A model generated the notes under the pieces. It made no database searches. It was not told the origin of the DNA and saw nothing but the letters and a program-made list of their open reading frames with translations. Both the position numbers and the translations under genes were made by a program. Shown here in pieces: positions 52,460 to 64,000 of a DNA stretch of 64,000 bases (position 1 is the first letter of the stretch; each line of letters begins with the position of its first letter). Source of the DNA: Candidatus Alcium sp. F082 (lineage in GTDB: Bacteria > Bacteroidota > Bacteroidia > Bacteroidales > F082); assembly GCA_001543395.1 (NCBI GenBank), contig LPNG01000009.1, positions 1 to 64,000 of the forward strand, in the 5' to 3' direction.

Positions 52460-54772
52460 ATGAAAAAGCTGCTTCTACTCACCATTCCCATAGTGATAGG
52501 TCTCACCGCCTCCGCCCAGACCCAACAGGGCTATGTAAAAACCAAAGGCCGCATGGTGAACGGCAAACTGGTGCCTGGACAAGGCTTGAAAGGGGCCACG
52601 GTCTCAGTGAAAGGACGCACTGCTGTGTTGGTGAATGCCAATGATGGTGCCTTCTCCTTCCCTGTTCCCGACAAACAGTTCCGCTTAGACTCGGTGAGGA
52701 AGAAAGGCTACCAACTCGTGGACATGGAGGCTTGCCCTAGAACCTATAACTATTCCGGCAACCCCATTTACATCGTGATGGAAACGCCAGACCAACAGTT
52801 GCAGGACCAGCTTGCCGCCGAGCGGAAGATTAGGCGTAATCTCCAGAAGCAATTGCAGGACAAGGAGGACGAGATAGAAGACCTGAAAGCTCAGCAAAAG
52901 ATCTCGGATGAGGAATACCGCCAAGCTTTGCAGAAGCTCTACCAAGACCAGGAAAACAACGAGCAACTGATCAAGGACATGGCCAAGCGATACTCTGAAC
53001 TGGATTATGACCAGCTGGATGAGTTTTACAGACAGGTATCGTATTGTATTGAAAATGGCGAGCTGGTTAAGGCCGATTCGCTTTTGAGGACTCGAGGAGA
53101 CATTACTGCTCAAGTGGAAAGCATAAAGCAACGCGGACAGGTAATTCAAGAACAAGATGAGCAATTGCAGAAAGCCAAAGATGTCCAGCAAGCCGACATC
53201 GAGGAAGCTGCCCGACGGTGCTACAGCTATTACGAGACTTTCAAAGCGCAGCATCTGAACGATACGGCGGCTTATTACCTGGAGTTGCGGGCGAGTTTAG
53301 ACACTAATAATGTAGATTGGCAGGAAGACATGGGTGATTTCACATGGGAATACATTGCCGATTATGATAAAGCTATAAACTACTATAGTTTGGGATTGCG
53401 CCAATCACGACAGCAATATGGAGAGGAGCACGAGAAAACCGCAATCTTTTATAATGGAATAGGAATTGTTTATTATTATCTTAGTGAATACGAAAAAGCT
53501 TTGGTACAACACAAACAAGCATTAAGGATTCAGAAGTCCATTTTACCCAAGAATCACCCTATTATTGCTTCTAGCTATAACAGTATAGGATTGGTGCTTA
53601 TAGACCAAGCCGACTATGACAATGCTTTGGAATATTTCAATATGTCCTTAATCATTTTTAAATCCGTTTATGGTGAAAACCATCCCGATATAGCTACCTG
53701 CTACAACAACATCGGTGCTGTGTACAGCGAGGAAGGAGACTTTAACAAATCTCTAGAATTCCATAATCAAGCCTTAATTCTTCGGAAAAACATTTTTGGG
53801 GAAATCAACCCTGATGTTGCCCAGAGCTACACAAATATTGGTTCGATATATTTTGAAAAAGGAGAATTCGATAATGCTTTGGAATACCACAACAAGGCCT
53901 TAAATATTTATAAATCCGTTTTTGGGGAAAACCATCCCGCAATAGCTAATTGCTACAACAACATTGGCGCCGTGTACAGCAGACAAAAAAACTATGACAA
54001 GGCTTTGGAATACTATAACAAATCATTGATTATTAATAAATCCGTTTTCGGGGAGAATCATCCTAACTTGTCTATCATCTATTCCAACATCTGTACGGTA
54101 TACTACTTCCAATGTGACTTTACTAAGGCCATAGAATACAACGAAAAAGCTTTGTTATTAACCAAATCTATTTTAGGAGATAATCATCCAGATGTTGCGG
54201 TAGCTTATTTTAACAACGGAAGTATCTCTCGAGAACTAGGCAACTACAATAAAGCTTTGGAAAACTTCAGCACTGCGCTTGATATTTGGAAGACCAATTT
54301 CGGAGAAAACCATCCTAATGTAGCCAGTGTTTACTTCAACATCGGCATTGCATACGACTATCAAGCCGAATTTAACAAAGCACTAGAATACTACTACAAA
54401 GCATTAAATATCCGAAAGGCTGTTTTCGGAGAAAAGCATCCTGAAGTGGCCGCAATCTATTACAAAATTGGAGGTATTTACTATAAACAAAACGACTTTG
54501 TAAAAGCATTAGAGTATTTCAACCAAGCTTTAACTATTCAAAAATCTGTTTTCGGAGAAGACCATCCCGATGTGGCCAAAAGCTACAACACTATTGGTGC
54601 CATATATACAAAAAAAGGTGATTATAGCAAAGCATTGGAATACCGCACCAAAGCATTGGACATTCAAAAAACCCTTTTTGGTCCCGAAGACCAAAGAACC
54701 ATAAAAACCCAACAAAAAATCTCCGAAATCCAGTCCAAACTAAAAGAACAAGAAAGCCAACCAAAAGAATAA
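52460..54772 (+). CDS. Exported TPR protein (paralogue 1) with N-terminal beta-sandwich and coiled-coil
   Basis: Signal peptide, GYVKTKGRMVNGKLVPGQGLKGATVSVKG, about ten 42-aa kinesin-light-chain-type TPRs. Confidence 0.88.
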   Translation: MKKLLLLTIPIVIGLTASAQTQQGYVKTKGRMVNGKLVPGQGLKGATVSVKGRTAVLVNANDGAFSFPVPDKQFRLDSVRKKGYQLVDMEACPRTYNYSGNPIYIVMETPDQQLQDQLAAERKIRRNLQKQLQDKEDEIEDLKAQQKISDEEYRQALQKLYQDQENNEQLIKDMAKRYSELDYDQLDEFYRQVSYCIENGELVKADSLLRTRGDITAQVESIKQRGQVIQEQDEQLQKAKDVQQADIEEAARRCYSYYETFKAQHLNDTAAYYLELRASLDTNNVDWQEDMGDFTWEYIADYDKAINYYSLGLRQSRQQYGEEHEKTAIFYNGIGIVYYYLSEYEKALVQHKQALRIQKSILPKNHPIIASSYNSIGLVLIDQADYDNALEYFNMSLIIFKSVYGENHPDIATCYNNIGAVYSEEGDFNKSLEFHNQALILRKNIFGEINPDVAQSYTNIGSIYFEKGEFDNALEYHNKALNIYKSVFGENHPAIANCYNNIGAVYSRQKNYDKALEYYNKSLIINKSVFGENHPNLSIIYSNICTVYYFQCDFTKAIEYNEKALLLTKSILGDNHPDVAVAYFNNGSISRELGNYNKALENFSTALDIWKTNFGENHPNVASVYFNIGIAYDYQAEFNKALEYYYKALNIRKAVFGEKHPEVAAIYYKIGGIYYKQNDFVKALEYFNQALTIQKSVFGEDHPDVAKSYNTIGAIYTKKGDYSKALEYRTKALDIQKTLFGPEDQRTIKTQQKISEIQSKLKEQESQPKE

Positions 54773-54774
54773 TC

Positions 54775-57087
54775 ATGAAGAAATACTTCATCCTCTCCGG
54801 TATCATGATGTTGGGCGTTATGCTCTCCGCCCAAAACCAGCAAGGCTATGTGAAAACCAAAGGCCGCATGGTGAACGGCAAGCTCGTGCCTGGCCAAGGC
54901 CTGAAAGGCGCCACGGTCTATGTGAAAGGCCGCACTGCCGTGCTGGTGAACGCCAATGACGGCGCTTTCTCCTTCCCTGTTCCCGAGAAACAGTTCCGCC
55001 TGGACTCGGTGAGGAAAAAAGGCTACCAACTCGTGGACATGGAGGCCTGCCCTAGGACCTATAAACGTTCAGGAAACCCGCTGTACATCGTCATGGAGAC
55101 GCCCGAACAACAGCTCCAAGACAAGCTCAACGCAGAGAAGAAGATTCGCCGTAACCTCCAGAAACAGCTGCAAGACAAAGAAGACGAGATAGAAGCCCTC
55201 AAGGAAGAAAACAAAATCACACTGGAGGAATACCAGAAGTCGCTGCAGCAGCTCTATGCCGAGCAGGAGAGCAACGAGCAGCTCATCGCTGATATGGCGA
55301 AACGCTATTCCGAACTGGACTATGACCAGCTGGATGAGTTCTACCGCCAGGTGTCATACTGCATCGAGAACGGCGAGTTGGTGAAGGCCGACTCGCTGCT
55401 GAGGACGAAAGGCGATGTTACCCTTCAGGTGGAGGCACAATTGCGCAAGGGCCAAGCAATCAAAGAACAGGAAGCCCAGCTCAACCAGGCCAAGACCGTT
55501 CATGCTGTCGACCAAGAGGAATTGGCTCGTCGTTGTTACAGTTTCTATGAGACCTTTACAGCGCAACATTTGAATGACACGGCGGCTTATTATTTGGAGC
55601 TGCGGTCAAGTTTGGACACCACGAATGGGGATTGGCTGAGTGAAGCAGGAGATTTTATTCGTGAATATATTGCGGATTATGCCAAGTCGTTGGAGTATCA
55701 CGAAAAAGCCCTGGCCATCAGGAAAAGTGACTTCGGAGAAAGCCATCCCGATGTGGCCGCAAGCTACAACAACATCGGCAGTGTGTACAACAGCCAAGGC
55801 GACCATAACAAAGCATTGGAGTATCATGAAAAAGCTCTGGCTATCAGGAAAGCTGTCTTAGGAGAGAACCATCCCGATGTGGCCACAAGCTACAATAACA
55901 TCGGAGTTGTGTACGACTACCAAGGCAGCTATGACAAAGCAATAGAATTCTACGAAAAATCACTGGATTTAGGGAAGACTATCTTTGGAGAAAGCCATCC
56001 CAATGTGGCTGCAATCTACAACAACATAGGAAGTGTGTACAACAGCCAAGGCGACTATAACAAAGCATTGGAGTATCATGAAAAAGCTCTGGCTATCAGG
56101 AAAGCTGTCTTAGGAGAGAACCATCCCGATGTGGCCCAAAGCTACAACAACATCGGTAATGTGTACAACGACCAAGGTGACTATGGCAAAGCACTGGAGT
56201 ATCTTGAAAAAGCCCTGGCTATCAAGAAAGCCGTCTTCGGAGAAAGCCATCCTCATGTGGCCATAAGCTACAACGACATCGGTTATACCAACCAAAACAA
56301 AGGCGACTATGGCAAAGCGATGGTATATTACGAAAAAGCTCTATCCATCTGGAAAGATGTGTTCGGAGAAAACCATCCCGATGTTGCCATAAGCTACAAC
56401 AACATCGGGTATGTATACAACATGCAAGGCAACTATGGCAAGGCGCTAGAGTATCACGAAAAAGCCCTGGCTATCAGGAAAGATGTCTTCGGAGAAAACC
56501 ACCCTTATGTGGCATCAAGCTACAACAACATCGGAAGTGTGTACAACGACCAAGGCGATGATGACCTGGCAATAGAGTATTACGAAAAGGCCCTGACTAT
56601 CTTGAAAGCAGTCTTCGGAGATAACCATCCCAATGTGGCTACAAGCTACAACAACATCGGTTATGTATACAACAATCAAGGCAACTATGACAAGGCGTTG
56701 GAATATTACGAAAAAGCCCTATCTATCAGAAAAGCCATCCTTGGAGAGAACCATCCTAATGTGGCATCAAGCTACAACAACATCGGTAATGTGTACAACA
56801 AACAAGGCGATTATGACAAGGCATTGGAGTATTACGAAAAAGCCCTATCTATCAGAAAAGCCATCCTTGGAGAGAACCATCCTAATGTGGCCGCAAGCTA
56901 CAACAACATCGGTAATGTGTACAACAAACAAGGCGATTATGACAAGGCATTGGAGTATTACGAAAAAGCCCTGGTCATCAGGAAAAAGGTTCTCGGAGAG
57001 GAGCATCCTAGCACCATCAAATCTCAAGAAAAAATCGCCGAAATCCAAGCAAAAATGAAAGAGAAGGAAAATGAAACAAAAGAATGA
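54775..57087 (+). CDS. Exported TPR protein (paralogue 2)
   Basis: As paralogue 1; TPR units nearly identical at DNA level. Confidence 0.88.
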   Translation: MKKYFILSGIMMLGVMLSAQNQQGYVKTKGRMVNGKLVPGQGLKGATVYVKGRTAVLVNANDGAFSFPVPEKQFRLDSVRKKGYQLVDMEACPRTYKRSGNPLYIVMETPEQQLQDKLNAEKKIRRNLQKQLQDKEDEIEALKEENKITLEEYQKSLQQLYAEQESNEQLIADMAKRYSELDYDQLDEFYRQVSYCIENGELVKADSLLRTKGDVTLQVEAQLRKGQAIKEQEAQLNQAKTVHAVDQEELARRCYSFYETFTAQHLNDTAAYYLELRSSLDTTNGDWLSEAGDFIREYIADYAKSLEYHEKALAIRKSDFGESHPDVAASYNNIGSVYNSQGDHNKALEYHEKALAIRKAVLGENHPDVATSYNNIGVVYDYQGSYDKAIEFYEKSLDLGKTIFGESHPNVAAIYNNIGSVYNSQGDYNKALEYHEKALAIRKAVLGENHPDVAQSYNNIGNVYNDQGDYGKALEYLEKALAIKKAVFGESHPHVAISYNDIGYTNQNKGDYGKAMVYYEKALSIWKDVFGENHPDVAISYNNIGYVYNMQGNYGKALEYHEKALAIRKDVFGENHPYVASSYNNIGSVYNDQGDDDLAIEYYEKALTILKAVFGDNHPNVATSYNNIGYVYNNQGNYDKALEYYEKALSIRKAILGENHPNVASSYNNIGNVYNKQGDYDKALEYYEKALSIRKAILGENHPNVAASYNNIGNVYNKQGDYDKALEYYEKALVIRKKVLGEEHPSTIKSQEKIAEIQAKMKEKENETKE
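56705..56956 (+). repeat. Tandem 126-bp TPR-coding repeat (2 units, 124/126 identical)
   Basis: ATTACGAAAAAGCCCTATCTATCAGAAAAGCC... at 56705 and 56831; further related units upstream. Confidence 0.9.
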
Positions 57088-59011
57088 CATAAAAAAACTG
57101 CTATTGCTTGCAGCAATCATGCTGGTGTGCGTCTGTGCCTCCGCCCAAACCCAACAGGGCTATGTAAAAACCAAAGGCCGCATGGTGAAAGGGAAACTCG
57201 TACCTGGACAAGGGCTGAAAGGCGCCATGGTCTCCGTTCAAGGACGTACCGCCGTGCTGGTCAACAGCGACAACGGAGCCTTCTCCTTCCCTATCTCTGA
57301 GCCTCAGTTCCGCCTTGACTCGGTAAGGAAAAAAGGCTACCAGCTGGTCGACATGGACGCCTGCCCTAAGACCTACAAACGCTCGGGCAACCCGCTCTAC
57401 ATCGTCATGGAGACCCCCGAACAACAACTCCAAGACAAGCTCAACGCAGAGAAGAAGATTCGCCGTAACCTCCAGAAACAGCTGCAAGACAAGGAAGACG
57501 AGATAGAAGCCCTCAAGGAAGAGAACAAGATCACGCTCGAGGAATACCAGAAGTCGCTGCAGCAGCTCTATGCCGAGCAGGAGAGCAACGAGCAGCTCAT
57601 CGCTGATATGGCGAAACGCTATTCCGAACTGGACTACGACCAGCTGGATGAGTTCTACCGCCAGGTGTCATACTGCATCGAGAACGGCGAGTTGGTGAAG
57701 GCCGACTCACTCCTTAACACCCGTGGCGACCTCAGCAAGCAGGTAGAGGAACAGCTGCAGAAAGGACAAGCCATCAAGGCGCAAGAAGAACAACTGGGTA
57801 AAGCCAAGGCCGTTCACGCCGCCGACCAGGAAGAGCTGGCCCGCCGCTGCTATAGCTTCTACGAGACCTTCGCCGCGCAACACATGAACGACACGGCGGC
57901 CTATTATCTGGAGCTCCGCGCCGCTTTGGACACCACGAGGATAGAATGGCAGAACGACGCCGGCACCTTCATCGACGACTACCTCGCCGACTACGACAAA
58001 GCCCTCTCCTATTATACCAGGATCTTGGGCATCTCCATGGCACAGCCCGAAATCAACACCGTGAATCTCATCTCCTCGCTCAACAACATCGGCTACATCC
58101 ACGCCGAGCTGGGCGACTATGCGAACGCCTCACAATATTACCTCCAAGCCAAGGATATGTCAGAAGCCGCCTTGGGACACCTCCACCCCCAAACGGCCAA
58201 CATCTATCTGAACCTGGGCTCCAACTGCTCCGCCATGGGCGATTATGACAAAGCGCTGGACTATACCAACGACGCCATCGAAATCTACGAGAAAACCATG
58301 GACCCCAGCGACCCCATCTTGGCCTCCGCCTACAACAACCTGGGCCACTGCTATTCCGAGAAAGACGAGATAGAGAAGGCATTGGAATACTATTTCAAGT
58401 CCTTGGCCATCCGCGTCAAAGCATACGGGGCAAAGCACCCTGACGTTTCGTTGAGCTACAACAACATAGGCTACTGCTATCTTCAGCTCCTTGATTATCC
58501 CACCGGATTGAGTTACCTTGAAAAGTCATTGGGAATCAGCGAGGAGGTCCTTGGGAGCAGCCATCCTACCACGACCTACATGTACAACAACATAGGTTTT
58601 CTATACACCCGTATCGGCGAAAACGAGAAAGGGCTCGAATACTATGAAAAAGCCTTGGAAGCCAGAAAAAAAGTATTGGGCGAAGACAACGACCATACCG
58701 CCGTTTGCTACGACAACATCGGCAATGTGTACACCAAGATGGGCGAATACGACAAAGCCTTGGAAAACAACAGAAAGGCCCTCGAGATCCGTAAGAAAAC
58801 CCTTGGCGAAGACCATCCTGACCTGGGTTATTCCTATTACAACATCGGCTTCGCCTACGCCAACCAAGGCAAATACATGGAAGCCCTCGAGTATTACAAC
58901 ATGGCGTACGAGTTGTTGAAGAAAGGCCTGGGCGAGGATCACAGCGACACGCAATACGCCAAACAAAGCATTGAGCAAATACAACAGAAGCTAAAAGAAG
59001 AGAAACAATGA
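57071..59011 (+). CDS. Exported TPR protein (paralogue 3)
   Basis: As paralogue 1; overlaps neighbours at both ends. Confidence 0.88.
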   Translation: MKQKNDIKKLLLLAAIMLVCVCASAQTQQGYVKTKGRMVKGKLVPGQGLKGAMVSVQGRTAVLVNSDNGAFSFPISEPQFRLDSVRKKGYQLVDMDACPKTYKRSGNPLYIVMETPEQQLQDKLNAEKKIRRNLQKQLQDKEDEIEALKEENKITLEEYQKSLQQLYAEQESNEQLIADMAKRYSELDYDQLDEFYRQVSYCIENGELVKADSLLNTRGDLSKQVEEQLQKGQAIKAQEEQLGKAKAVHAADQEELARRCYSFYETFAAQHMNDTAAYYLELRAALDTTRIEWQNDAGTFIDDYLADYDKALSYYTRILGISMAQPEINTVNLISSLNNIGYIHAELGDYANASQYYLQAKDMSEAALGHLHPQTANIYLNLGSNCSAMGDYDKALDYTNDAIEIYEKTMDPSDPILASAYNNLGHCYSEKDEIEKALEYYFKSLAIRVKAYGAKHPDVSLSYNNIGYCYLQLLDYPTGLSYLEKSLGISEEVLGSSHPTTTYMYNNIGFLYTRIGENEKGLEYYEKALEARKKVLGEDNDHTAVCYDNIGNVYTKMGEYDKALENNRKALEIRKKTLGEDHPDLGYSYYNIGFAYANQGKYMEALEYYNMAYELLKKGLGEDHSDTQYAKQSIEQIQQKLKEEKQ

Positions 59012-60138
59012 ACCCTCAGTTCAAATACTACGCCTTTATCAGCTACAATGCCAAGGACACGGCATGGGGCAAAACGCTGCAGAAAAAGCTGGAGCACTAC
59101 AAGTTGCCGACCCAACTTTGCAACGAGCACAACTGGCCAAGGAAACCCATCAAGCCCGTGTTCTTCGCCCCTACCGACATTCAGCCAGGAGGCCTCTCCA
59201 ACGAGCTTCAAGAGCGGCTGAAAGCCTCAGAGCATCTCATTGTCATCTGTTCACCCAACTCAGCCAAGTCGGAATGGGTGGGGCGCGAGATAGAGTATTT
59301 CCATAGCCTTGGACGTCCCAACAACATCCACTTCTTTATCGTGGATGGCACGCCCCACAGCGGCGACCCTGAGACGGAATGCTTCAACCCCGTCATCGAC
59401 AAGTTGGGGCTGCCCGAGATCCTCGGCGCCAACGTCAACGAGAAGATCTACCGTTGGCAATGGCTCAACAGGGATCGCGCCTATGCACAACTCGTGTCAA
59501 AGCTCCTCGGCGTGGAGTTCGACGCCATCTGGCAACGACACAAAAGGCAACTCATCCGGAAGACGGTTTTATGGGCCATAGGCATCATCGCCGTCATTGC
59601 CACCCTGCTCGGCGTGCGCAAAGCCAACCAACCCTTCGACGCCGAAATACGCCTGAGCGAAGCCTCCGTCAACAACACTATGCTGCCGCCTATCCAAGAC
59701 GCCATAGTCACGCTGACCCTCGACAATGAGACAAAGAAAGACACCTTGTCCTCACCCGACGCCGGCCTGACCTTCAATAACATCCCCCACCGTTATCTCG
59801 ATCAACCCATCCATATCACCGTGACGTGTAAAGACTTCCTTGACATCGACACCACTGCCACTTTGACGAAGAACACACTGCTGCAGGTCAGACGTGACCC
59901 CTCGGTCTATGGCGACATCCATTTCAAACTCTGGAACATCAACACCGAAGAGAGCGTCGACTCTACCATGGTGTGCATCCAAGGGCAGCAAGCGCTCTCC
60001 GATACCAATGGCATGATCAAGCTGATGATTCCTTTAGAGAAACAACGTAAGGCCTATAAAATCGAAACTGACTTGAACCTGGTCAACGACTCCATCTTCA
60101 TGCCCTGTGGCGAAGATGACGTGATCCTGGTACAATAA
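59008..60138 (+). CDS. TIR domain-TM-periplasmic beta-domain protein
   Basis: YYAFISYNAKDTAWGKTLQKKLEHYKLP, VICSPNSAKSEWVGREIEYF; TM TVLWAIGIIAVIATLLGV; beta-rich C terminus. Confidence 0.87.
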   Translation: MNPQFKYYAFISYNAKDTAWGKTLQKKLEHYKLPTQLCNEHNWPRKPIKPVFFAPTDIQPGGLSNELQERLKASEHLIVICSPNSAKSEWVGREIEYFHSLGRPNNIHFFIVDGTPHSGDPETECFNPVIDKLGLPEILGANVNEKIYRWQWLNRDRAYAQLVSKLLGVEFDAIWQRHKRQLIRKTVLWAIGIIAVIATLLGVRKANQPFDAEIRLSEASVNNTMLPPIQDAIVTLTLDNETKKDTLSSPDAGLTFNNIPHRYLDQPIHITVTCKDFLDIDTTATLTKNTLLQVRRDPSVYGDIHFKLWNINTEESVDSTMVCIQGQQALSDTNGMIKLMIPLEKQRKAYKIETDLNLVNDSIFMPCGEDDVILVQ

Positions 60139-62019
60139 TCACCTTTCTTCCTTGAAACGTACTATGGCATCGATGATCTCATCGTTATCGTCAGATATGG
60201 TGAGAATCATGTTCTTGAAGATGCCGCGGTCACTCAAGTCTTTAAGCAACGTGTAGGCAGGCATATAGTGTGTGTAGTACTCCTTGCCCATGAAAACCAT
60301 AGGGCTGGCATAGCCCACACTCTCATAATGGTTCTGCCCGGCATCTTGGAAGATCTCCTGCATGGTACCCGCGCTTCCTGGCGTATAGATGATGCCGCCC
60401 TTGGCGATGGTGACGATGCCGTCCTCACGCACGCTGTTGTCGAAATACTTGGCGATGTCGGTGGCAAAAGGTGCCGTCGGCTCGTGACCATAATACCATG
60501 TCGGGATGGCCAAGCTTCGGTATTCGGATTGCAATGGGAAGCGCTCCATCACCTCGAAGGAACGACGCAGCCAACCTTCATCTTTGTAGGTAGGCGAAGG
60601 CATGAGCATATCCACAGCCTCGTTCACCTCATCATCGCTCCTACCCGCCATCCAAGCCCCGAGATGCGTGGCTTCCATAGCTCCTGGACCGCCGCCCGTC
60701 ACCATCAGCTTACCCATCTCGGTGAGCTTCTTGCTCAAGAAGACAATCTGCCGATAGCCTGGCTCTTTGCGACTTAAGGCATGGCCACCCATAATGCCGA
60801 TGACATCCTTCTCGTCGTAAAGGCTCAACATATTATACAAGGCATGACTGATGAAATGGTCGTGTAATGAGCGCGCCAAGGTCTCACGGACCGCATGGCC
60901 TTGCTTACCTTGGTTGATGTAATGCTGATACACCTTGGTGTCATAACACGTCTCATAGGTCGACTCATCATGATAGTCATAGCCATTATAGAGGACCTTG
61001 TAAGTATATAAGCCCTTGGGGTAGGTTGAGAAAGGCTTGCCTAGCTTAGGAATGAAAAGGCTAAGATCGTCCTTGCCCACCTCGTTCAAGACGCGATTGA
61101 CAATGCCAGCGGCGTCAAGCCCGAACTTGTGCATCAGCGCCGATGCCTGTCCCGACTCGCCAAAGCAATCGTCCATGCCGATTCGGTACACCCTGATCGG
61201 ATGGTTCTCACAGAAAAACTCGGCCACTGCTCCGCCCAAGCCACCAGCCACCTGATGCTCCTCAACGGTGAAAATCAAACGCGTGTCGTCGGCGGCCTTT
61301 TTCAGTATCTCGCCATCCAACGGCTTAATGGTATGCATATTGATGACTCGTGTCGAAATGCCCAAATGCTCAAGCATGTGAGCGGCTTCGAGCGACTCCC
61401 ACACCTCGTGACCTGTGGCCACCAACGTGATGTCGGTTCCGTCACGCATCAGTTGGGCTTTTCCTATCTCAAAGTCTTGGTTCTCATCCGTGAAGTCAGG
61501 CACCGCCTCACGACCGAAACGGATGTAGACCGGTCCATCGCACTCAAGGATGGCCTTCTCTGTGGCAATTTTGGCCTGCGTGGCGTCACAAGGCGAGATG
61601 ACCGTCATATTGGGCAGCACCCGCATGGTAGTGATGTCCTCCAACGCCTGGTGTGTGGCGCCATCGGGACCCACAGAAACGCCTGCATGGGCACCACCGA
61701 TGACAACGTGGACATTGTTGTAGCATACCGAGATACGAATCTGATCGTTGGCGCGATGCGCAGCAAATACGCCATAGGTACTAAATACGGGAATCTTGCC
61801 ACTCAGGGCCAGTCCCGCAGCCGTAGCCACGGCATCCTGTTCAGCAATGCCCATGGAGAAAAAACGCTCCGGGAAAGCGTCAGCGAAGAGGTTCATCCCC
61901 ACCGAGTTGGTGATGTCGGCCCCCAAGCCAACCACCCTTTTGTCTTTTTGCGCCGCAGCGAGAACGCCCTCGCCGAAGCCTGTCTTTGTGGCCTTGTTGC
62001 CTTTATTCGTATAGTTCAT
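60139..62019 (-). CDS. Transketolase C-terminal subunit fused to LOG/PpnN-like Rossmann domain
   Basis: aa 1-310 Tkt pyrimidine/C domains (MGIAEQDAVATAAGLA); aa about 313-626 IMGGHALSRKEPGYRQIVFLSKKLTEMGKLMVTGGGPGAMEATHLGAWMAG, YTPGSAGTMQEIF. Confidence 0.85.
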   Translation of the reverse strand: MNYTNKGNKATKTGFGEGVLAAAQKDKRVVGLGADITNSVGMNLFADAFPERFFSMGIAEQDAVATAAGLALSGKIPVFSTYGVFAAHRANDQIRISVCYNNVHVVIGGAHAGVSVGPDGATHQALEDITTMRVLPNMTVISPCDATQAKIATEKAILECDGPVYIRFGREAVPDFTDENQDFEIGKAQLMRDGTDITLVATGHEVWESLEAAHMLEHLGISTRVINMHTIKPLDGEILKKAADDTRLIFTVEEHQVAGGLGGAVAEFFCENHPIRVYRIGMDDCFGESGQASALMHKFGLDAAGIVNRVLNEVGKDDLSLFIPKLGKPFSTYPKGLYTYKVLYNGYDYHDESTYETCYDTKVYQHYINQGKQGHAVRETLARSLHDHFISHALYNMLSLYDEKDVIGIMGGHALSRKEPGYRQIVFLSKKLTEMGKLMVTGGGPGAMEATHLGAWMAGRSDDEVNEAVDMLMPSPTYKDEGWLRRSFEVMERFPLQSEYRSLAIPTWYYGHEPTAPFATDIAKYFDNSVREDGIVTIAKGGIIYTPGSAGTMQEIFQDAGQNHYESVGYASPMVFMGKEYYTHYMPAYTLLKDLSDRGIFKNMILTISDDNDEIIDAIVRFKEER

Positions 62020-62845
62020 TCAAAAACTCCTTTACTTGTTCTTTGCTCGGCACCTTGCCATGCCATTGGTTGTTGTCTTCGATGCTCTTCACGCCCTTGC
62101 CCATGATGGTATCAGCGATGATGACGGTAGGCTTGCTTTTCTCTTGGTCGGCCATCTCCAAGGCCATCTTGATCTGTCCCATGTCGTGGCCGTCAATCTC
62201 AATCGTATGCCACCCGAAAGCAGCCCATTTGTCGCGCAAGGGATCGATGACCATCACCTTCTCGGTACCGCCGTCAATCTGCTGACGGTTGCGGTCGATG
62301 ATGACACAGAGATTGTCGACCCGATGGTGAGCCGCCGCCATAGCGGTCTCCCATACACTTCCCTCCTGCTGCTCGCCATCACCCATGATGCAGAACACTC
62401 GGTTCACGGTCCCTGAGCCCTGAGCCTGTCGAAGGGTCGAAGGGCCATCCATCTTGGCCGACAAAGCCATGCCCAATGCCACGCCAATCCCTTGTCCCAG
62501 GCTTCCCGAGCAAGTCTCCAAGCCAGGCAAGCGGAAAGCATAACTCGGATGCCCCTGCAAGCGGCTTCCCAACTTACGCAGCGTCAGCATCTCCTCTTCT
62601 GGGAAATAGCCCGCTGCCGCCAAGGTGGCGTACAAAACGGGGGCCGTATGCCCTATGGAAAGCACCACCTTGTCGCGGCCTTCCCAATCGGGGTGCTTGG
62701 GGTCGTGACGCATATGGTTAAAATACAAAACAGTGAAGATATCCGCTAGATCGAGGGAGCCGCCCGTATGTCCCGAGCCAGCCTCTGCCAAGGCGGTCAA
62801 TATCAATTCGCGGATATGCCGCGCTTTTGCTTCCAAATCTATCAT
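62003..62845 (-). CDS. Transketolase N-terminal (TPP-binding) subunit
   Basis: AGSGHTGGSLDLADIFTVLYF, GSLGQGIGVALGMA, GDGEQQEGSVWE. Confidence 0.93.
   Translation of the reverse strand: MIDLEAKARHIRELILTALAEAGSGHTGGSLDLADIFTVLYFNHMRHDPKHPDWEGRDKVVLSIGHTAPVLYATLAAAGYFPEEEMLTLRKLGSRLQGHPSYAFRLPGLETCSGSLGQGIGVALGMALSAKMDGPSTLRQAQGSGTVNRVFCIMGDGEQQEGSVWETAMAAAHHRVDNLCVIIDRNRQQIDGGTEKVMVIDPLRDKWAAFGWHTIEIDGHDMGQIKMALEMADQEKSKPTVIIADTIMGKGVKSIEDNNQWHGKVPSKEQVKEFLNELYE
62409..62446. repeat. CCCTTCGACAGGCTCAGGG dispersed-repeat element inside transketolase N-subunit CDS
   Basis: GGTCCCTGAGCCCTGAGCCTGTCGAAGGGTCGAAGGGCC, translated as GPSTLRQAQGSGT. Confidence 0.8.
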
Positions 62846-63342
62846 AAAATGGCTATTAACTCTTTAACGATGTAATAAATGCACACACAAGCATAAATCA
62901 CTTTGATGCCCGTGCCGCAAAGGAACCCGATAAACGATCCGATGGCCGAACGCCAAGCCTTATGGTCGTCAGTACCCGCATTTTTCTCGCCGATATAGGC
63001 ACCAATAAAAGGACCTAACAAGATGGCGATAAACCCAATAGGCATGGCTAAGGTAACCAACAAACCCAGAAAGAGGCCTATGGTACTGCCCCGAACGCCT
63101 GCCTTGGTGCCACCGAAATGCTTCGTGCCCCACACGGGGACGACATAATCCACAGTAAAGACGATAGCGCCAATCACACCCATAATGATCAAGAACTTAG
63201 GCGAGAAACTGACGCCTTCGGCAAACGATAAGGCCAACAAGGCAAGAAAACTAAACGGTGTTCCGGCGATACCAGGGACCACCGCGCCAACAATGCCAAT
63301 CAGAGCCAGAATAATGGACAATGCAATGAGAAAATACAGCAT
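62842..63342 (-). CDS. DUF456 family membrane protein
   Basis: GAVVPGIAGTPFSFLALL, WGTKHFGGTKAGVRGSTIGLFLG, GPFIGAYIGE. Confidence 0.88.
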   Translation of the reverse strand: MLYFLIALSIILALIGIVGAVVPGIAGTPFSFLALLALSFAEGVSFSPKFLIIMGVIGAIVFTVDYVVPVWGTKHFGGTKAGVRGSTIGLFLGLLVTLAMPIGFIAILLGPFIGAYIGEKNAGTDDHKAWRSAIGSFIGFLCGTGIKVIYACVCIYYIVKELIAIL

Positions 63343-63450: not shown

Positions 63451-64000
63451 ATGAAGAAGACGCTACTCCTCATAGTCATAATCCTTTCAACCTCAACCCT
63501 TTTCGCCTACGACCTCATCCATCCTATCGGAGGTCGCGCCACCGCCATGGGAGGCTCGTCGGTGGCATCACAAGGGCTGTGGGCCATGCAGAACAACCCT
63601 GCCGGCATGGCCAATCTGGAGAAAATCAGCCTCGGCTTGTATTACGAAAACCGCTGGCTGCTCCCCGAGACGGCCTACAAATGCGGCGCCTTCGCCCTCC
63701 CCACCAAGTTCGGCACTTTGGGACTTAGCTTCAACCAGTTCGGCTCCTCAAAATACAACGAGAACAAGCTGGGCCTCGCCTATGCCAAAGACTTCGGGCG
63801 TTACCTTCAAATCGGGCTCCAACTTGACTACCTCATGCTCAAGATTGGCAACGACTATGGCAAATTCAGCGCGCTTACCTTCGAACTGGGCATACAATCG
63901 CATGTCACCGACAAACTGACCCTGGGCACCTATGTTTTCAACCCCGTCAGCTTCAGTTTTGAGCAGACCCTCAACCATGAGAAACTGCCCATCGTGATGC
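63451..64000 (+). CDS. Exported outer-membrane beta-barrel-like protein, truncated by window end
   Basis: Signal peptide, GGRATAMGGSSVASQGLWAMQNNPAGMA; read directly from 63451. Confidence 0.75.
   Translation, partial: MKKTLLLIVIILSTSTLFAYDLIHPIGGRATAMGGSSVASQGLWAMQNNPAGMANLEKISLGLYYENRWLLPETAYKCGAFALPTKFGTLGLSFNQFGSSKYNENKLGLAYAKDFGRYLQIGLQLDYLMLKIGNDYGKFSALTFELGIQSHVTDKLTLGTYVFNPVSFSFEQTLNHEKLPIVM

Follow-up and report, generated by a model that had tools for sequence, protein, structure and literature searches.

LOG and PpnN enzymes set free ribose 5-phosphate, and transketolase consumes it. S7P and E4P rise in E. coli on account of the ribose 5-phosphate that PpnN supplies (PMC10311079). 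Among type-II LOG enzymes, CgLOGII has been dissected by mutation: the enzyme cannot do without Arg155, Lys156, Thr175 or Glu178 and scarcely without Asp177, with K156 and D177 needed for AMP hydrolysis (PMC5379747). On the transketolase side, the split enzyme of Carboxydothermus hydrogenoformans is an active α2β2 tetramer, and split transketolases have been stated to be confined to archaea and some thermophiles (PMC7661550). The locus described here joins these two protein families in one gene. A literature search found no paper on a fusion of the tktC~LOG type, most subscription journals lying outside its scope.

The window, that is the whole 64,000-nucleotide stretch of DNA analysed, comes from a MAG of 2.36 Mb that is 72% complete. 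The minus-strand gene order is DUF456, tktN, tktC~LOG, and the features are as follows.

63451..64000, plus strand: outer-membrane-protein-like gene running past the window edge; conserved, divergent neighbour of the locus
62842..63342, minus strand: DUF456 membrane protein (PF04306), gene 1 of the conserved locus
62003..62845, minus strand: tktN, N (TPP-binding) subunit of a split transketolase, 280 aa; best PDB match 6yak, E 9e-78
60139..62019, minus strand: fusion gene tktC~LOG, 626 aa, a single ORF from ATG to stop
61498..61992, minus strand: transketolase pyrimidine-binding domain (Transket_pyr), residues 10-174; Pfam E 1.3e-41
61102..61464, minus strand: transketolase C-terminal domain (Transketolase_C), residues 186-306; Pfam E 5.3e-31
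61048..61080, minus strand: junction or linker, approximately residues 314-324
60811..61047, minus strand: helical region that opens the LOG half, approximately residues 325-403, with LHDH at 385-388; conserved in the standalone subfamily
60142..60810, minus strand: LOG/PpnN-like Rossmann domain, residues 404-626, supported by Pfam (under the gathering cut-offs), phmmer, AlphaFold2 (AF2) and Foldseek

DUF456 and tktN overlap by 4 bases, tktN and the fusion gene by 17 bp, and AAAGGAG stands a few bases 5' of the fusion gene's ATG. A complete split-transketolase C-subunit spans residues 10-306. Because tktC genes of the genus that are not fused end at about residue 313-315 (fusion numbering), the joint contributes only about 10 residues ahead of the LOG half. 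The AF2 model of the full fusion shows two confident domains (pLDDT 84.6) connected by a linker of low pLDDT at residues 317-321; its pTM is 0.54, and the mutual placement of the two domains is not fixed by the model. The sequence-only reading had proposed a single-ORF fusion of a complete transketolase C-subunit to a LOG/PpnN-type domain, which Pfam, phmmer, Foldseek and a genus survey all bear out.

Several further features of the locus were recorded. The tktN gene carries an in-frame 11-aa insertion around STLRQAQGSGT (62408-62440), which is due to the palindromic repeat CCCTGAGCCTGTCGAAGGG (62418-62436); tktN of the close relative L035 is shorter by 11 codons, 6yak is without the inserted stretch, and the same repeat is also found elsewhere in several related loci. 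As read from the translations, positions 52460-60138 hold three tandem genes (770, 770 and 646 aa) with an N-terminal region in common and tetratricopeptide-like arrays, and after them, at 59008-60138, a TIR-like/carboxypeptidase-regulatory-like protein whose gene is convergent with the fusion gene and ends one base before the fusion stop. Relatives L034 and L035 retain the last two genes of this stretch. A search for a defence-system role gave no PADLOC match.

The transketolase half matches the C-chain of 6yaj with 294 bits, and TktN the N-chain of 6yak with 265 bits. The two proteins have the architecture of a split transketolase, with the pyrimidine-binding and C-terminal domains on one chain and the PP domain on the adjacent gene. 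Motifs shared with 6yaj are GADITNS (33-39), GIAEQD (57-62), PDGATHQ (118-124) and RFGRE (167-171); in the alignments of the fusion and TktN, the TPP-binding and catalytic residues are kept (GDG..N, the Glu of GIAEQ, DGATHQ and RFGR), as are, in TktN, the four N-chain histidines of 6yak (SGH/SIGH/LQGHP/WHG). A separate transketolase, which the sequence-only reading had proposed to look for, is present in the near-identical genome G117 (99% complete, fusion 100% identical) in the form of a second split transketolase. The same was found in the complete genomes examined, while none was seen in G000, an incomplete genome. Judged by its sequence, the split transketolase of the fusion locus, an accessory enzyme, is probably active.

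The LOG half matches PF03641 over residues 508-616 (E 4.9e-4; 20.7 bits against a cut-off of 27) and PF18306 over residues 406-458 (E 1.5e-3, under the gathering cut-off), and scores 15.2 with TIGR00730 against a cut-off of 96, short of formal membership of the LOG family; standalone members of its subfamily also fall under the PF03641 and TIGR00730 cut-offs. The NCBIfam PpnN model (NF038390), whose cut-off is 450, gives it 25 bits, far too few for formal PpnN membership. By phmmer, the C-terminal half aligns with LOG/PpnN chains of known structure, the best being 5zi9 (E 5.5e-8). The AF2 model of the LOG half (pLDDT 87, pTM 0.90) has the LOG/PpnN core fold, and Foldseek matched it to the type-II LOG 5wq3 (E 9.7e-8, TM 0.79 by target) and also to PpnN. 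The active-site elements are the following.

60670..60696, minus strand: GGGPGAMEA nucleotide-binding motif, residues 442-450
60427..60429, minus strand: R531, in the position of the catalytic Arg155 of CgLOGII; the next residue is E532 in place of Lys156
60355..60381, minus strand: PGSAGTMQE, residues 547-555; T552 and E555 correspond to Thr175 and the catalytic Glu178 of CgLOGII, and Q554 replaces Asp177

The catalytic Arg and Glu, whose absence would have spoken against a LOG enzyme, are thus present as R531 and E555. Together with T552 and the PGSAGT..QE motif they are invariant in 17 aligned subfamily members, the three residues being unchanged in fused and standalone members alike; CgLOGII mutants at the equivalent positions lose activity (PMC5379747). 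Further invariant elements of the LOG half are MGGH, HDH, YGHEP and QNHY. The sequence-only reading had noted the departure of PGSAGTMQE from PGGxGTxxE. That departure is real; the idea of a decayed motif was rejected, as PGSAGT is invariant across what is a distinct subfamily. The adenine-contacting Lys and Asp/Glu are missing, E532 and Q554 standing there instead, and this exchange of K156 and D177 makes the substrate, and even activity, of the LOG half uncertain. PpnN is likewise without the Lys of CgLOGII. The subfamily is LOG-like and, from its predicted fold and the residues it keeps, probably works like LOG/PpnN with a different base pocket; the LOG half itself is probably an active nucleotide 5'-monophosphate phosphoribohydrolase.

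The LOG half corresponds to a Bacteroidales-wide standalone protein of about 370 aa less its roughly 65 N-terminal residues. The subfamily was found in 19 of the 393 genomes sampled at order level and in 13 of the 396 sampled at phylum level, two samples that overlap and include a few members of the genus; this is about 3-5% of the sampled Bacteroidales/Bacteroidota genomes, and outside the fusion the protein is standalone. The N-terminus of about 65 aa in the standalone proteins (L102, L074, L084 and others) has the pattern YAFQxIDF..FxDCxFxGC and no Pfam match, and is gone in the fusion. No transketolase neighbour of the standalone gene was found within the flanks examined in other lineages, and neighbourhood clustering in Bacteroidota gave no conserved partner. 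Homologues at 33-39% identity lie on plasmids of Paenibacillus, Arthrobacter, Streptomyces and Bradyrhizobium. Among these plasmid homologues (L160, L161, L162, L164, L165), nuclease genes adjoin in Paenibacillus, Streptomyces and two Bradyrhizobium contexts, and are of the EEP, S1/P1, phospholipase D-like and DNA/RNA non-specific endonuclease kinds, the last fused to a trypsin-like domain. Such neighbours would fit nucleotide catabolism. The partnership stays a hint because a check of 20 Bacteroidota genomes turned up neither EEP nor DNA/RNA endonuclease families next to the LOG gene.

We then have the distribution of the fusion itself, a survey that the sequence-only reading had also called for. 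The fusion is present in 37 of 99 Candidatus Limimorpha genomes, 36 of them beyond the present one, at 79-100% identity (in G110 it starts only at residue 30). The same fusion is also found on independently named GTDB contigs, with samples from rumen, abomasum and hindgut, and together with the 36 other genomes these exclude a chance or merged reading frame. Across carriers the DUF456-tktN-tktC~LOG synteny is conserved, and pairwise dN/dS values are mostly 0.02-0.1 in tktN, tktC and LOG. The LOG half occurs alone, at the same locus, in five of the 99 genomes, and tktC of this type occurs without LOG in 12 (five at 85-88% identity, seven at 71-77%); most remaining genomes have only the paralogous split transketolase, at 45-49% identity. 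Outside the genus, no fusion was seen among the LOG matches in the two genome samples (393 at order level and 396 at phylum level, with some genus members in them) or among the 80 best GTDB contigs, behind which lie 198 weaker GTDB relatives. Since the open frames there measure 290-460 aa, the subfamily is never fused outside the genus among these matches. This is a new domain architecture, made from known fold families and an uncharacterised LOG/PpnN-like subfamily and, as far as seen, restricted to one genus.

The locus also carries traces of its history. In the deepest group of the genus (the genomes at 71-77%) the order of outer-membrane gene and DUF456-tktN-tktC occurs without LOG; the main group has this order with a fused LOG. 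At this locus the five LOG-only genomes have DUF456-LOG, with tktN and nearly all of tktC missing, and an N-terminal stretch of the LOG-only proteins aligns in register with the last 20 or so residues of tktC. For three of the five, none of 500 shuffles aligned as well, and for the other two 17/500 and 26/500 did; among standalone LOG proteins of other lineages almost none beat the shuffles. In AU tests a monophyletic fused group remained acceptable, on the LOG tree (p 0.385; 0.484 with L067 left out) as on the tktC tree (p 0.097). Because these tests leave the matter unsettled, it is synteny and the tktC-tail remnant that point to the fusion as the source of the LOG-only genes, and they favour fusion first and internal deletion afterwards. 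In the five nearer tktC-only genomes, LOG may have been lost or may never have been gained. One fused copy stands apart: in L067 (G065/G110) the N-terminus of tktC is shifted into another frame, tktN and DUF456 are nearly identical to those of L041, and the LOG part is nearest to the LOG-only group. This suggests recombination within the locus; a copy in the course of decay, or an error in the sequence, would be the alternatives.

What the joined protein does can be approached from these observations. In the reading we prefer, to which we would give an even chance, the fusion is a split transketolase and a phosphoribohydrolase held by a loose tether at the ribose 5-phosphate node, as a non-obligatory pair. 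A LOG/PpnN-like gene would have been appended in frame to tktC at its 3' end, with the linker of about 10 residues in between, inside the accessory DUF456-tktN-tktC operon of Ca. Limimorpha. The fusion protein and TktN would assemble into an α2β2 split transketolase (a C-subunit dimer and an N-subunit dimer) bearing two LOG domains on its C-subunits. The LOG half would convert a nucleoside 5'-monophosphate to base and ribose 5-phosphate, the tethered transketolase would pass C2 units to ribose 5-phosphate and other aldoses, and the two catalytic halves would meet at the ribose 5-phosphate pool. We infer these enzyme activities, as well as the base preference, the quaternary structure and any benefit of the tether. 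The pair is described as non-obligatory because the halves persist separately, LOG is constrained when alone and a second transketolase is present; the tether is taken to be loose, with no committed channel, because relatives may lose either half.

The main rival, a real possibility if the lesser one, is that two active but functionally unrelated proteins were fused by chance and are not metabolically coupled. On this account the tktC stop codon was lost beside an incoming LOG gene, tktC took the place of the ancestral N-terminus of about 65 aa, and the product persisted because it was harmless or provided co-expression or scaffolding. The standalone family, lacking a transketolase neighbour or conserved partner across Bacteroidota, is what a chance fusion would lead one to expect, as are the relatives that keep only one half; moreover, LOG stays under strong purifying selection after transketolase loss (dN/dS 0.02-0.04 in the LOG-only genes). 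Against it, 37 species-level genomes retain the fusion, and, provided LOG is active, ribose 5-phosphate is the point at which the two partners meet. A bolder form of the tethered pair, which we consider unlikely, is that in rumen Bacteroidales a member of a new phosphoribohydrolase subfamily (PGSAGTxQE, with E and Q for Lys and Asp), tethered to transketolase, supplies nucleotide-derived ribose 5-phosphate directly to the non-oxidative pentose phosphate pathway.

The sequence-only reading had gone as far as nucleotide turnover channelled into that pathway. Committed channelling, with the LOG site handing ribose 5-phosphate on to the transketolase site, now looks improbable. It draws on the shared metabolite, the short linker and the link from PpnN to S7P in E. 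coli (PMC10311079), and that last result upholds a metabolic connection between the two activities; obligate channelling is not supported, as the halves occur separately in nature (LOG alone in five genomes, tktC alone in 12), the complete genomes examined hold a second split transketolase and the model gives no sign of facing sites.

Some domains of the SLOG superfamily act as nucleotide sensors. A LOG domain that is no enzyme and instead binds nucleotides to regulate transketolase would accord with the loss of the base-contacting Lys and Asp and with the extra invariant elements; we think this very improbable, given that neither the fused nor the standalone proteins vary at the catalytic Arg, Thr and Glu and that most members have no transketolase to regulate. 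Finally, an artefact of sequencing or assembly merging two genes can be dismissed, for although the window derives from an incomplete MAG, nothing was found in its favour and independent assemblies from many hosts show the same ORF.

As proposed, the route from PpnN to the pentose phosphate pathway in E. coli rests on metabolomics. The natural fusion, LOG-only and transketolase-only forms of one locus offer a ready three-state set of constructs for this coupling, addressing both the delivery of nucleotide-derived ribose 5-phosphate to transketolase and the effect of tethering. The locus also points to an uncharacterised LOG/PpnN subfamily that is spread thinly over several phyla and lies under Pfam and NCBIfam cut-offs, and it places split transketolases in gut Bacteroidales.

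Set beside the known systems, the transketolase part has the same two-subunit architecture, adjacent genes and domains as the enzyme of C. hydrogenoformans (6yaj/6yak; PMC7661550), whose C-subunit, unlike the fusion, is without a LOG domain; in contrast to the range given for split transketolases, those seen here are in gut Bacteroidales, often two per genome. With type-II LOG proteins (CgLOGII 5wq3, TT1465 1wek, 5zi9) the LOG half shares the fold, the GGGPG motif, the catalytic Arg and Glu and the phosphate-loop Thr, but differs in PGS for PGG, in a base pocket with E for K and Q for D, in a long insert between the two motifs and in a helical N-terminal part of about 80 aa, the structural matches having 17-21% identity. 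With PpnN (YgdH; 6gfl, 9hs1-3) it has in common the WGGH/MGGH, GPGAMEA and EPPNP/EPATP elements, the position of the catalytic Glu and the core fold, whereas the flanking regulatory domains of PpnN, PAG1 (DUF4478) and PAG2 (DUF3412), have no Pfam match in the LOG half.
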